Assembly: GCF_038066715.1 (NCBI RefSeq)
Contig: NZ_JBBUKT010000008.1
Coordinates: 186,001-250,000, forward strand
Reading direction: 5' to 3'
Length of the DNA: 64,000 nt
From: Luteolibacter sp. Y139
GTDB lineage: Bacteria; Verrucomicrobiota; Verrucomicrobiia; Verrucomicrobiales; Akkermansiaceae
Under the pieces are notes generated by a model, which worked only from the letters and a program-made list of their open reading frames with translations, searched no databases and was not told the DNA's origin. Shown here in pieces: positions 9,359-14,202 of the stretch. The position numbers and the translations under genes were made by a program. Numbering within the stretch: position 1 is the first letter of the stretch; each line of letters opens with the position of its first letter.

Positions 9359-10078
9359 TCACTGCCAGTGATACTCCTTCATCGCCTGGTAGTTCTTCCA
9401 GGCGAGGTAGCCGAAAAAGAAGATCGTGTAGGTGGAGTCCCGCCACACGAATCCCAGGATGGCTGCGGCCACCGCCGTCGCCACACTGATTTGGAAGGCC
9501 CGCTTCTGCGGCGTCACGAACAGTTGGGCGATCTGGCCGCCGTCCAGGGGCAGGATCGGCAACAGGTTGAGGATTCCCCACCAGAAGTTGATCCACAGCA
9601 TGCTGTTGAGCAGCGACATCAGCGGCGGGCGGTTCTGAATGAACTCCATCGTTTCCGAGGAGACGGCAGAGTCGGTAATTCCGAATAGCGAGAAACCCGC
9701 GAAGGTGGCGGCGTCGTGAACGCCGAACATGGACACAAGGATCACGAAGATCAGGCCCCCCAGGAGAAAGCCCGCCCCGGGGCCTGCGGCGATCATCCAG
9801 AATCGGCCGCTTCGCGTGAATCGTCCACCATGGTTGGTGGCCAAGCCGCCCAGAGCCCACAGCTGGATCGTCGCGTAGCCACCGCCCAGCCGTCGGCCGG
9901 TCAGGGCGTGACCGAACTCGTGAACCAGGATCGAAATCGTGGCAGCGAGGACGAAGATCAGCACGTACTGCATCGCCTCCGGCGTGGCGCTGAAGAGGCC
10001 TCCGCTGAAGTAGGCGGTGGCGAGCCAGAACCACGGTTGGATTTCAACCGGGACGCCGAAGAGAGTGAAACGGACCAT
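9359..10078 (-). CDS. Site-2 protease family (M50) membrane metalloprotease
   Basis: This 239-aa membrane protein has HEFGHA (HExxH zinc motif) in the second membrane segment and LPLDGGQ, the second-half LDG motif carrying the third ligand Asp. Intramembrane proteases of this type cut membrane-bound regulators such as anti-sigma factors. No PDZ or CBS domain is present, so it belongs to the short rhomboid-like S2P group. The start is the ATG at 10078 (MVRFTLFGVPVEI). Its promoter must lie between it and the terminator at 10154-10180, or it is reached by read-through of that terminator. Confidence 0.85.
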   Translation of the reverse strand: MVRFTLFGVPVEIQPWFWLATAYFSGGLFSATPEAMQYVLIFVLAATISILVHEFGHALTGRRLGGGYATIQLWALGGLATNHGGRFTRSGRFWMIAAGPGAGFLLGGLIFVILVSMFGVHDAATFAGFSLFGITDSAVSSETMEFIQNRPPLMSLLNSMLWINFWWGILNLLPILPLDGGQIAQLFVTPQKRAFQISVATAVAAAILGFVWRDSTYTIFFFGYLAWKNYQAMKEYHWQ

Positions 10079-10153: not shown

Positions 10154-10180
10154 AAAAAAAGCCGCCCGGCAAAGGGCGGC
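10154..10180 (-). terminator. Rho-independent terminator of the candidate small RNA
   Basis: Read on the minus strand: a perfect 7-bp stem GCCGCCC/GGGCGGC (10180-10174 and 10167-10161) with loop TTTGCC, followed by seven T. This is a textbook intrinsic terminator. No protein gene lies upstream on this strand before topB, which stops at 11031 and has its own hairpin. The terminator therefore implies an unannotated transcript. Confidence 0.8.
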
Positions 10181-10410
10181 TGGATTTTCCGGAGCAGTCC
10201 GCCCGGCGGATCGGGGAGCTGACCCGCCGGGCGGCTGACACGGTCGACACACACACTTCGGGGGGGAAGTCGGCGGCGTGGATCGGGGGGAATCAAGCTG
10301 CCGGGTGTCTCGGAACTTCTCTCGGGATTGGGGGGAATCCGTCGGTCAGTCCATATGTTCCTTCGCGGCGGGCTGGGGGGAACCTTTCGCTCGGGTGTCC
10401 GGTGAGGGAC
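10154..10410 (-). ncRNA. Candidate structured small RNA with four hexa-C hairpin loops
   Basis: Read 5'-3' on the minus strand, the RNA would hold these elements. H1 (10384-10371) is GGTT-C6-AGCC. H2 (10340-10325) is GGATT-C6-AATCC. H3 (10294-10281) is GATT-C6-GATC. H4 (10270-10255) is ACTTC-C6-GAAGT. H5 (10237-10195) is a 14-bp GC-rich stem with one bulge and a loop containing GCTCCCC. A terminator follows at 10180-10154. The four stems differ in sequence yet all pair and all present exactly six C, which is internal covariation support for selection on structure. H1, H2 and H3 start at an exact 45-nt period. Expected length is about 250 nt. C-rich loops in bacterial small RNAs usually target G-rich ribosome binding sites (inference). 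It matches no RNA family that I recognise. Confidence 0.65.
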
Positions 10411-10415
10411 GGGCG

Positions 10416-10445
10416 GAGTAGAGGGGAGAATGGTTTAACTAGCAA
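10416..10445 (-). promoter_or_regulatory. Putative sigma70 promoter for the small RNA
   Basis: On the minus strand, TTGCTA (10445-10440) and TCTACT (10422-10417) are separated by exactly 17 bases. Each matches the sigma70 consensus at four of six positions. Transcription would begin near 10410, about 25 bases before the first C-loop hairpin. The region upstream (10430-10660) is markedly AT-richer than the genome average. Confidence 0.4.
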
Positions 10446-10544: not shown

Positions 10545-10806
10545 AAGGGTTTCCGAGTGTTTTATTAAGGTGTGTTAAATGTTAGATTATGTCGACCTGC
10601 TGTAGATGTTTGATTCAAGTGAATCTTATAGAGCCCGTGTGAGGTCCAAAATCGGCGGATTTTGAACGGAAGCGGAGCTCAGGCGTCGTCAGAGCGAAAA
10701 TCGGGCCAACGCCGGAGTCGTTAGATCACGACAATACCGTGATCGCGTAATGCGGAATTCTCCCATTGCCCACCATGTGCTTCGAATCGCGGGGTTCCCG
10801 CAGATG

Positions 10807-11030: not shown

Positions 11031-13550
11031 TCAACTTCCCTTCGCCGCCTTCGGCGCACGCGGCGGGAACTCGAAGCCTACCTTGCCGTCGGCCAGGGAG
11101 AAGGTCAGGAAAGCATCGAAGCCGCGCTTGGTCTTGTTCGAGACGAAGCCCTTGATCAGCTCGGTCTTGCCCTCGGCCAGCATCTTGACCACCTGCTCCT
11201 GCGGGACTTCCTTCTGGAGGATGGTCTTGCCGATGCGCACACCTTCGGGGTCCTTCTTGGTCTTCAGCTCGGGAATCAAGTAGGCCTTCTCCGTGCCGTA
11301 GATCTTCACCTGACGGCCATCCGCCAGCGATGCCGTGCCGACGATCATTTCGTCGGTGAGTTCCACATCGGGCTCGTCCTTGTCGCCGAAGACGAAGTTG
11401 ATCTTGAACTTGTCGTCGAGCTCCAGCGCCGCATCGAAGGGCTTGTTGAACTTGCTCTTGAAGCCTTCCAGTGGGCCGACCAGGCGCTTGCTGAAAAGCT
11501 CGCGTGCCTCGTCTTCCGAAATCAGGCGGCCGGCGATGTACTTCTTCGCCTTGAAGCCGCAGTCGGGCGTCCGGCACTCGTAGGATTCGTCGGTCTGCTT
11601 GAGTCCCTCGGTCCCGCACTTCGGGCAGGTGGCCTGGAGGTCGGGGAAGGCGCGATTCTTGATCTCGGCAGCGAGAGACTTGGCACGGACCACGATGTCC
11701 TTCGTGTAGTCCTCGATCTCCTTCATGAACGCGGCGCGCTGGAGTTGGCCGTGTTCCATCTGCCGCAGCTTGTACTCCCACTCGCCGGTCATGGCGGGCG
11801 AGGTCAGGCCGGCGATCTGCATCTCATTCAGGATGTGGATCAGCCGCATGCCGTTCGGCGTGACGTGCAGGTCGCGGGCATCGCGGACGATGTATTTCTG
11901 CGCGATGAGGCCTTCGATGATCGCTGCGCGGGTGGCAGGCGTGCCGAGGCCGCGCTCGGACATGGCTTCGGCCAGCGCCTCGTCATCGACGAGCTTGCCG
12001 GCGCCTTCCATGGCGGAAAGAAGCGTGGATTCCGTGAAGCGGGCGGGCGGCTTGGTCTGCTCGTGCTTCACCTCGATTTCCTTCACCGGGGCTTTCTCAC
12101 CGGCAGCGACCTGGGTGAGCTCGTCCTTGCCGGAAGCGACACCGGGGCGGCGACCGTAGACTTCGAGGTAACCGGGCTTCACCAGCACGCGGCCTTCGGT
12201 TTTGAAAGTGTCCGTGATGTCGCCGGTCGCGATGCGGGTCAGACGGGTGGTTTGCTCGAACTCCGCGCTCGGGAAGAACACGGCGATGAAACGCTTCACG
12301 ATCATGTCGTAGAGCTTCTCCTCGGTGTCGCTGAGCTTCACGAACTTGCCGGTCGGGATGATCGCAAAGTGATCGGAGACTTTCTTCGAATCGAACACGC
12401 GCTTCGACTTGTGGAAACGCGGCCCGCTCTCCTGTTTCCCATCAAGCACGGCCCGGGCGTATTTCGCCACGCCGAGGTCGGAGCTGGCGATGTCGCGCAA
12501 GGTCTCGCGCACGGTGTCCCCGTAGTCCTCCGGCAGGTAGCGGGAGTCGGTACGAGGGTAGGTGATCATCTTGTGCTTCTCGTACAGCGCCTGGGCGATG
12601 GCGAGCGTGCCCTTTGCGGTGAACGGAGCCTCGCGTTGCAGCGTGGTCAGGTCGTAAAGCTGCGGGGAGATCTGTGACTGCGCCTTCTTCTCCTCGGAAA
12701 CGGTGCCGGTCTTCCCATCGCAGCGGGCCTTGACTGCCTCCGCTGCGGTCAGGTCCCAAATCCGCTCCGGGCGGCCGTGTGGGTTGGCTTCGTTCCGCTT
12801 GAAAGCCTCGTCAATCCACTTGCCGAGGTAGTCGCCAGCAGCGACGCCGAAGGTGGCGTGCACTTCATAATAGGCGCTCGGCTTGAAGGCCTGGATCTCG
12901 GCTTCACGGGCGGACAGGATCGCCAGCGTCGGCGTCTGGACCCGGCCGGCGGCGGTGATGTTGAAGCCACCGTGGCGGGAGCGGAAGCAAGTCAGGGCGC
13001 GGGTCGCGTTCAGGCCGACCAGCCAGTCGGACTCGGAGCGGCACTTCGCGGCATCGGCCAGCGGGCGCATTTCCTCGTCGGAGCGGAGTTTTTCCCAGGC
13101 ATCGATGATCGCCTGGTTGGTCATCGACTGCATCCACAGCCGTTTCACCGGCTTCTGGATCCCGCCGATGTCCATGATGTAGCGGAAAATCAGCTCGCCC
13201 TCGCGGCCGGCGTCGCAGGCATTGACGACTTGGTCGACATCCTTGCGCTTGGCCAGCTTGAGCACTTGTTTCAATCGGGCCTCGGAATCCGGGATTGGAT
13301 CGAGCTCGAAACGGTCGGGAATCGCCGGCAAAACCTCGAATTTCCAAGGCAGTTTCTTGCCGTTCGGGCCGGTCGGCATGCGCAATTCGACCAAATGGCC
13401 GACGGCCGAGGTGATGATCGCGTTGTCGTTCTCAAACCACGAATCACGGCCGGATCCCTCCTTCTCGAACTTCCCCAGAGCCTTGGCCAAAGCCTTGCTC
13501 AGGTCGGTCATCACGGAGGGCTTTTCAGCTATGATAAGGATTTTACCCAT
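11031..13550 (-). CDS. topB: DNA topoisomerase III (type IA)
   Basis: This 839-aa protein relaxes or decatenates DNA by single-strand passage. The N-terminal Toprim domain has the opening [11 protein letters not shown] and [12 protein letters not shown] with its acidic metal ligands. The active-site tyrosine is in [25 protein letters not shown] marks the type IA core. After the core is one four-Cys zinc ribbon (CPKCGTEG...CRTPDCG), then two topoisomerase C-terminal repeats ([20 protein letters not shown] and a later partial copy). Overall it resembles bacterial TopB rather than TopA. The start is the ATG at 13550 ([12 protein letters not shown]); codons upstream fall in a duplicated leader. 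It has its own promoter region and a hairpin at 10956-10997. Confidence 0.93.
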
Positions 13551-13581
13551 GAAATTCGGCAGGTCGGTCGACGGCGACGCA

Positions 13582-13656
13582 CTAGACGTGCCGGGGCCAA
13601 CTTGGCAAGGGCATTCCTGAAACCGGCGGCCAATCCCCGTAGGGGATGAAAATTTT
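13582..13656 (-). repeat. Leader repeat A (upstream of topB)
   Basis: About 75 bp is shared, at roughly 80% identity, with 14717-14786. Both contain CAACTTGGCAA, then TTCCTGAAACCGG-like sequence, and a small hairpin (ATCCCC-GTA-GGGGAT here) next to an A/T run. Each copy sits just upstream of a minus-strand start: topB here, a membrane protein gene in the other case. That makes a duplicated promoter/leader likely; on the minus strand TTGCCA is a possible -35. Confidence 0.6.
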
Positions 13657-13677
13657 GCCCGCCGGCATTTCCCCTTA

Positions 13678-14202
13678 TTAATACAGCGGTTTTGCTCCCT
13701 CCGGGCCCGCCAGAAGCTCGTCCCGCCAGCCATTCGCCAATTTCGTCCTCAATCGCATGGAGAACCCCAAAAGGACGAATCCCGACACCGAAAACAAGAT
13801 CCAGAGCAGCGGGAAAGCCGGCTCCCCGGTGAAAAGGGAAATCATGGACAGGACGAAAAACCCCACCGAGACCGCGGCGAGGAGCTGATCGAGGATTTCC
13901 ATGGCCACATAGGCTGGCAGCCGGTGGCCCGGCATCCGGTAGTGGTGGGAACCATTCAGCCACGAGACCGTTGCTACCATCGTATAGCCGATGAGATTTG
14001 TCATGAGGGATGCCCAGAGCCATTTCAAGCTGATGAGCCGTCCTGCCGAGGGCATGGCGATTAGGTAAACCATGCTCGCCATCGTGGCGAAGAGGCCTCC
14101 CAGCCACATGAGCACGCTGGGCAGGCCGAGCAGCATGGTGGCCATGACCCGAATCGCGCGCGGCATCGCGACTGGTGCTTCTATTTCTTCGATCCTGTCC
14201 AT
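13678..14202 (-). CDS. Small four-helix membrane protein (paralogue 3 of 3)
   Basis: This 174-aa protein of unknown function has four predicted membrane segments (around residues 22-50, 62-84, 103-125 and 130-152). It has the block [20 protein letters not shown] between helices 2 and 3, which recurs in the next two genes upstream. It lies 15 bp after its nearest paralogue, so they are co-transcribed. The start is the ATG at 14202, though MPRAIRV 12 residues in is possible. It belongs to a local tandem family downstream of dprA. Confidence 0.7.

Follow-up and report, generated by a model that had tools for sequence, protein, structure and literature searches.

The Locus and Its Predicted RNA

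The window, the 64,000-nt stretch of Luteolibacter sp. Y139 DNA analyzed here, contains a gap between a topoisomerase IA gene and an M50 metallopeptidase gene in which a small RNA of ~257 nt is predicted on the minus strand, the strand of both flanking genes. The features of the locus, in the direction of transcription, are as follows.

11031..13733, minus strand: topoisomerase IA open reading frame, upstream neighbor (Pfam Topoisom_bac and Toprim)
10440..10445, minus strand: putative −35 element TTGCTA (TTGNCN-like, 17-nt spacing in most type I and type II copies; hexamers picked by eye)
10417..10422, minus strand: putative −10 element TCTACT (from comparison of copies; absent from a consensus promoter scan)
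10154..10410, minus strand: predicted small RNA, ~257 nt (ends placed from promoter and terminator)
10397..10410, minus strand: predicted 5′ hairpin GTCC..GGAC (RNAalifold, 11 type I sequences)
10371..10384, minus strand: predicted hairpin 1, GGTT-C6-AGCC, C6 at 10380-10375 (folding, flank-shuffle and re-dealing tests)
10325..10340, minus strand: predicted hairpin 2, GGATT-C6-AATCC, C6 at 10335-10330 (folding, RNAalifold, re-dealing test)
10281..10294, minus strand: predicted hairpin 3, GATT-C6-GATC, C6 at 10290-10285 (folding; re-dealing not significant, 1332/5000)
10255..10270, minus strand: predicted hairpin 4, ACTT-C7-GAAGT, C7 at 10266-10260 (RNAalifold, re-dealing test)
10247..10256, minus strand: GUGUGUGUGU linker, (GU)n, overlapping the end of hairpin 4 (alignments of copies)
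10199..10235, minus strand: predicted GC-rich 3′ hairpin with C-rich loop CTCCCC (alignment of 23 sequences)
10154..10181, minus strand: predicted intrinsic terminator, 8-bp stem and seven T (sequence and terminator scan)
9359..10078, minus strand: M50 metallopeptidase gene, downstream neighbor (Pfam Peptidase_M50)

The true start of the topoisomerase gene is probably later than that of the open reading frame, since homologs align from about residue 60. With a spacer of 17 nt, the positions of the −35 and −10 elements place the expected RNA start near 10410. The promoter elements proposed in the initial annotation are indeed present, and their 17-nt spacing is kept in most type I and type II copies; because the consensus scan did not list the window promoter, its support is this conservation. 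The 5′ hairpin contains one pair that is C-G in five of the 11 type I sequences and U-A in five. A 76-amino acid open reading frame across the 5′ part of the RNA matches no Pfam family, and RNA homologs differ by many 1- or 2-base insertions and deletions.

The minus strand of the 64 kb holds five runs of at least six C, four of which lie here within 121 nt. Clusters of four such runs within 130 nt occurred in none of 60 second-order Markov sequences. A 281-nt stretch covering the locus folds at −115.7 kcal/mol (z −4.0), and none of 200 shuffles reached an equally low energy. The four hairpins enclosing exactly six C, from which the initial annotation had argued for a small RNA, were all found where it had placed them, except that the fourth tract comprises seven consecutive C and can be read either as ACTT-C7-GAAGT or, as first drawn, as ACTTC-C6-GAAGT. 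The first three tracts do start exactly 45 nt apart, as had been remarked; alignments show this spacing to be incidental and absent as a family feature. The GC-rich stem with its C-rich loop (10235-10199) and the terminator ending in seven T (10181-10154) were likewise recovered. The whole window is free of Rfam matches at cutoff, in line with the earlier statement that no Rfam family with this layout was recognized. The core claim, a new noncoding small RNA with C-rich loops, is supported by this and by the homologs described below. Beyond it, the analysis found an Rfam look-alike, 6C, and, in the Y139 genome itself, a second copy and a third sibling family.

Conservation and Taxonomic Range

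A DNA search returned two copies in the Y139 genome and matches in 14 of 17 further genus members. In 39 genomes from other genera, its only matches were two short ones to the 3′ end, 35 and 30 nt long. R1, a covariance model built on the 3′ core of 23 sequences, matched 17 of 18 genus genomes, the missed genome being 61% complete. Its 26 sense matches in the genus comprise the 23 training sequences and three new ones (G013, G017, and the second copy of G012); an extra match in G003 (E 0.007) lies antisense to a genuine copy. The expectation of the initial annotation that related genomes would hold homologs with conserved C tracts was borne out: the genus homologs keep the C tracts, the promoter spacing, and the terminal hairpin.

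Outside the genus, R1 gave one marginal match among 242 other genomes of the family (G081, E 0.0096), which lacks C6 tracts and was taken as chance. An order-wide R1 search of 386 genomes, in overlapping sets, found nothing further. A pattern scan of GTDB r220 (84,980 species, one genome each) returned 12 DNA stretches, from Haloferula rosea, H. luteola, Haloferula sp. BvORR071, Luteolibacter marinus, and Verrucomicrobia metagenome-assembled genomes (MAGs). The MAG contig CAMCYK010000335.1 (L057), titled Akkermansia muciniphila, carries the RNA, and its public label is probably wrong. The C6-loop RNA is almost certainly a real and conserved small RNA, and it most likely represents a so far unlisted family that occurs in several copies per genome in Haloferula and close relatives. 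All alignments exclude L017 and L018, which are terminator-type matches only; the short versions L013-L016 were dropped from the full-length alignments A1-A3, and L023, at a contig end, from A1-A4.

Type I and Type II Copies at Orthologous Loci

Of the 17 genomes with an R1 match, 12 carry a type I copy, like that of the window, downstream of the topoisomerase IA gene and in the same orientation. In G003, G004, G006, and G015 the RNA and the topoisomerase gene are on different contigs, and in G010 the topoisomerase gene was not found. The topoisomerase 3′ flanks of G003, G004, and G015 do not contain the RNA. Thirteen topoisomerase loci of other genera were read, and the RNA is absent from all 12 that have 3′ flank sequence, over up to 480 nt (one flank extends just 141 nt). 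Type II comprises nine copies, which are divergent from murG in all eight loci read; the ninth, L023, is the one at a contig end. The Pfam domains of murG and of the murC-murB fusion that follows it were checked in the Y139 genome.

In six members (L013-L016, G013, and G017), the version that follows the topoisomerase gene is shorter and begins at most ~100 nt past the stop codon. These short versions keep a hairpin ACACCG(U)n..A(n)CGUGU with UCCCCC in its loop, along with the terminal hairpin; in L016 the loop of the former lacks a C tract. The −35/−10 spacing is 17 in most full-length copies, with L006 and L021 as exceptions (elements picked by eye). The linker is GU-rich in most copies and longest in type II. 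In the GC-rich 3′ hairpin, eight of 15 counted pairs are invariant, and 98.3% of cells across the 23 sequences are paired.

A Third Sibling Family with a C6 Terminator Loop

A three-C-run pattern gave 100 matches in the 18 genus genomes, compared to 11 for a mirrored control (overlaps counted), and 68 compared to 46 in 39 other genomes. It revealed the type III RNAs, which are ~130-160 nt long. They are predicted to carry C6 hairpins and a promoter block of their own, which in many copies reads AAAATCGGACAT, and to end in a terminator that likewise has C6 in its loop. Many type III promoters have a G run immediately before AAAATCGGACAT, ahead of the expected start. One of the 21 type III extractions has a wrong start, and L151, L152, L158, and L159 stand outside the type III alignment. 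The type III covariance model (R2, 20 training sequences) produced 54 matches at E ≤ 0.01 in 13 of 18 genus genomes; 48 of these, in 11 genomes, reach E 1e-6. The Y139 genome carries two R1 matches and three R2 matches, one of the latter partial:

G000:C14:24384-24519, plus strand: type III copy (R2)
G000:C16:46823-46969, plus strand: type III copy (R2)
G000:C13:193213-193295, minus strand: partial type III copy (R2)

G011 has eight R2 matches, six of them in tandem within 1.6 kb (G011:C3:65032-66546, minus strand); tandem type III arrays are also seen at L141, L142, L148, and L153.

Searches with R2 outside the genus, in 57 relatives and 384 class genomes (overlapping), led to G029, G053, G133, and G717. 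The matches in G029 and G133, which belong to one sister genus, look real. They contain four and three C6 tracts, respectively, together with a promoter box of similar form, indicating that the design reaches at least one sister genus. The G717 match is confined to the C6 terminator loop. The match in G053 (L172, G053:C44:1551-1671), from another family of the order, has several C tracts between a TTGACA-type promoter and a C6-loop terminator and is possibly an independent C-loop RNA. Two further short RNAs, L190 (G009:C1:5851744) and L195 (G009:C1:2274363), came up as subthreshold matches of the 6C model; each has a C6 tract followed by a terminator hairpin whose loop is C-rich, and they possibly represent a fourth C6 RNA type.

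A palindrome resembling ACGYGATNRCGT precedes the type II and type III copies and several of type I; counted by eye, it sits ~55 nt ahead of the expected start in type II and ~40 nt ahead of it in type III. The exact box occurs at five sites in 1.14 Mb from three members, all five outside predicted genes. A control with an altered center had no sites, and two other controls had 2 and 12 sites, one outside genes. Two of the five exact sites precede type III RNAs in G009. Because the others are not located before a recognized C6 RNA, the box probably serves a regulator of broader scope. At the corresponding place the window copy has no such box. A related site is found at 10738-10747, ~290 nt upstream of the −35 element, in the gap behind the topoisomerase gene.

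Display of C6 on Changing Stems

Runs of four, five, six, and seven C number 23, 11, 29, and 3 in 11 type I RNAs, 12, 16, 20, and 0 in eight type II RNAs, and 5, 15, 77, and 6 in 20 type III RNAs, the type III peak at six being partly due to selection, because the search pattern behind this set itself required C6 runs. Types I and II were collected through their similarity to the window RNA. On both strands of 338 kb of the Y139 genome, the corresponding counts are 1601, 293, 42, and 10, an approximately sixfold fall per step. For runs of at least five C, the 5′ neighbor is U in 151 of 179 and the 3′ neighbor a purine in 175 of 179. The stems vary among copies and U-CCCCCC-purine stays. Runs of four or more G are found just twice in the 39 RNAs, which would leave the C loops unmasked.

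When flanks were shuffled, a hairpin over the tract was supported (P ≤ 0.05) at 18 of 44 type I, 22 of 36 type II, and 52 of 99 type III tracts. This leaves nearly half of the tracts in type III, and over half in type I, unsupported by this test alone, and some may be single-stranded. We also re-paired hairpin arms between homologs. In a flexible register, the tracts' own arms folded better at nine of 10 positions, although the test is inflated by relatedness among copies and, in type II, by imperfect position matching, as the kth tract from the 3′ end is not always homologous there (e.g., L019, L025, and L026). The numbers of re-dealings as low, of 5000, were 21, 1332, 3, and 6 for type I from the 3′ end, 77, 0, 2, and 73 for type II, and 0 and 1 for type III. 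In a strict register, pairing was significant only at the type III terminator loop (0 of 2000 re-dealings) and marginal at type III H2 (62 of 2000, some rows being a nonhomologous tract). The corresponding numbers for type I were 116 at tract 3 and 954, 625, and 406 at tracts 1, 2, and 4. Hence, the covariation within the molecule that the initial annotation had read from the four stems is upheld only in part: strict 5-bp stems at type I tracts 1, 2, and 4 pair no better than re-dealt ones, and in a flexible register three of the four type I positions do. The covariation score of the R1 alignment was matched by 71 of 500 shuffles; this alignment is without clear covariation because the GC stem hardly varies.

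Search for G-Tract Targets

Runs of at least five G within 60 nt before the start occur in 8 of 251, 11 of 287, and 15 of 265 genes of three members and in 7 of 181 genes of one relative that lacks the RNA; each sample is ~5% of a genome, with gene starts set crudely by a simple script. By this comparison, no excess of G5 or G6 at gene starts was found. Conserved G5+ runs in leaders numbered 0 in 15 and 0 in 32 orthologue pairs. None of six aligned upstream G5+ runs of G008 was conserved, compared to five of 11 C5+ runs, and a depletion of G6 in coding strands was not found in these samples. Action on G-rich ribosome binding sites or on a protein had been put forward in the initial annotation as an inference, and it keeps that standing here.

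The leader of murG offers a lead. Seven of 10 members of the type II/III clade have four to six G at −21 to −23, one has G4 at −13, and G011 and G004 have none. Among six members outside the clade that are without type II near murG, G013 also has G4 there; this genome has no type II or type III matches. The leaders examined (L289-L298) make up a candidate target in which the G tract follows an apparent hairpin in several cases. In the Y139 genome, GGCUGGGGGG in the murG leader is complementary along its whole length to CCCCCCAGCC in hairpin 1 of the window RNA. Ranked by its best duplex with any of four own small RNAs, the murG leader is fifth of 251 in this genome, 55th of 265 in G009, and 85th of 287 in G011. 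We regard murG as a weak lead and no result, suggestive in the Y139 genome only.

A Possible Trans-Acting RNA or Sponge for Protein

Comparison of the predicted genes shows that they form a family with conserved promoters and C6 tracts displayed on changing stems. In the reading that we prefer, the locus would encode a small regulatory RNA of ~257 nt that acts in trans and is transcribed from a sigma-70-type promoter of its own to an intrinsic terminator. Four hairpins and the GC-rich 3′ hairpin of this RNA would present C tracts, mostly as U-CCCCCC-purine. The window RNA would be one of several siblings per genome, of types I, II, and III. Each C6 loop may be a redundant seed for pairing with G-tracts in the leaders of mRNAs, and such pairing would block translation without Hfq. 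Many loops per molecule combined with many gene copies could then give a strong, dosage-dependent response. This statement as a whole, an Hfq-independent antisense RNA acting in trans through C6 loops and leader G-tracts in a dosage-dependent manner, we hold to be about evenly poised between right and wrong. An Hfq domain was found in none of 38 relatives by a search whose positive control was found in five of 14 genomes. Pairing with G-tracts has published precedents in B11/6C and sX13. Either of two C-rich loops of B11 can pair with a run of six G in the eccB4 leader, and repression is regained in compensatory mutants (PMC10470900). According to PMC3771888, sX13 needs its C-rich loops and G-rich mRNA motifs and is Hfq-independent, and compensatory mutants did not restore regulation.

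The main and serious rival is protein titration, in which the C6 loops would be bound by an RNA-binding protein, perhaps one of the C-preferring KH, cold-shock, or Rho type, with the siblings serving as a CsrB-like sponge. Such a sponge would fit the repetition of a single loop motif four to five times in each molecule, the preference for runs of six between a constant 5′ U and 3′ purine, the presence of several siblings in each genome, and the upstream box common to type II, type III, and some type I promoters, as well as the absence of a G-tract target signal from the tests at gene starts and leaders. Against it, a CsrA domain was detected in none of the 38 relatives (the positive control was found in three of 14 genomes), and the known C6-loop RNAs, B11/6C and sX13, act by pairing. 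We consider titration less likely than not.

Far less probable is that the sequence is a cis element, namely a 3′ untranslated or termination region of the topoisomerase gene or a leader of the M50 peptidase gene. The same-strand position behind the topoisomerase gene in most genomes, and the short versions that begin so close to its stop codon, are what such an element would predict. However, the RNA has a predicted promoter of its own, lies apart from the topoisomerase contig in the three genomes whose flank lacks it, occurs as type II at murG and as type III elsewhere, and is separated from the M50 gene by a terminator. That the tracts are instead a C-rich intergenic repeat or mobile element at the DNA level, as the multicopy and partly tandem type III might suggest, is scarcely credible given the orthologous positions at the topoisomerase and murG loci, the fixed order of promoter and terminator, stem changes that preserve pairing, and the asymmetric U and purine neighbors of the C tract.

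We also tentatively propose, at somewhat less than even probability, a genus-wide C6 code. Three scaffold families of sibling RNAs at up to ~ten loci per genome would show the same U-C6-purine loop, even in terminators, and share a palindromic promoter box. They would address one regulon through one six-base seed, or through one C6-reading protein, without Hfq or CsrA.

Relation to Known C-Rich and Multicopy RNAs

The closest Rfam look-alike is 6C (RF01066). Membership was rejected, as the type II copy of the Y139 genome (L002) scored 26.6 bits against a cutoff of 47. At E ≤ 10, the 6C model listed no match for the window copy (L001) or for L140, L165, and L171, and all seven Rfam matches listed at this threshold for five loci are far under their cutoffs. 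Across 57 genomes, the 6C model gave no match over the cutoff, the best being 40.6 bits at another locus of G009; the sensitivity of this search is limited, as the control, Corynebacterium glutamicum, was also recovered only below cutoff. The 6C/B11 RNAs and those described here have in common stem-loops that show about six C. Extra copies of 6C exist in some species (PMC9569102). In mycobacteria no RNA chaperone has been identified, according to PMC10470900, similar to the lack of Hfq in the relatives here. The differences are in scaffold and phylum: 6C has two stem-loops in ~100 nt (PMC4046766), whereas the present RNAs have four to five C tracts in 130-260 nt. C6 stem-loops are present here, but with this larger number of tracts and on another scaffold, and while 6C belongs to Actinobacteria, the named matches here are Haloferula, Luteolibacter, and Verrucomicrobia MAGs.

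sX13 of Xanthomonas, as described in PMC3771888, is abundant and has several stable stems with apical C-rich loops of 4C or 5C. Several apical C-rich loops are likewise a feature of the RNAs here. It differs in being 115 nt long with three loops, and it is not known to have a sibling family. Its targets have G-rich motifs near the start, whereas for the present RNAs there is no general signal and a weak lead at murG. The LhrC1-5 RNAs of Listeria are several siblings under one regulator. Each has redundant C-rich sites of the form UCCC, located within loops and in single-stranded stretches (PMC4132741). Several sibling copies and redundant C-rich sites are present here as well. LhrC1-5 differ in that the motif is UCCC rather than C6 and in that they bind Hfq without needing it. 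CsrB and RsmX/Y/Z also combine a repeated loop motif with several siblings under a common regulator (PMC4132741). Their motif is GGA, in contrast to C6 here, and their partner CsrA/RsmA is absent from 38 of 38 relatives; membership in CsrB/RsmZ was rejected on these two grounds.

Searches of open-access papers listed no report of such RNAs for Verrucomicrobiota and no small-RNA work on Haloferula or Luteolibacter, so that the C6 RNAs would be the first regulatory-RNA family for these two genera. Multiloop C6 siblings in organisms without Hfq or CsrA raise the question of whether one short repeated seed can replace an RNA chaperone. The 6C/B11 parallel in mycobacteria suggests that such a solution may have evolved more than once. 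Should the proposed C6 code be correct, it would stand with 6C/B11 of the Actinobacteria as a convergent case of chaperone-free RNA control.
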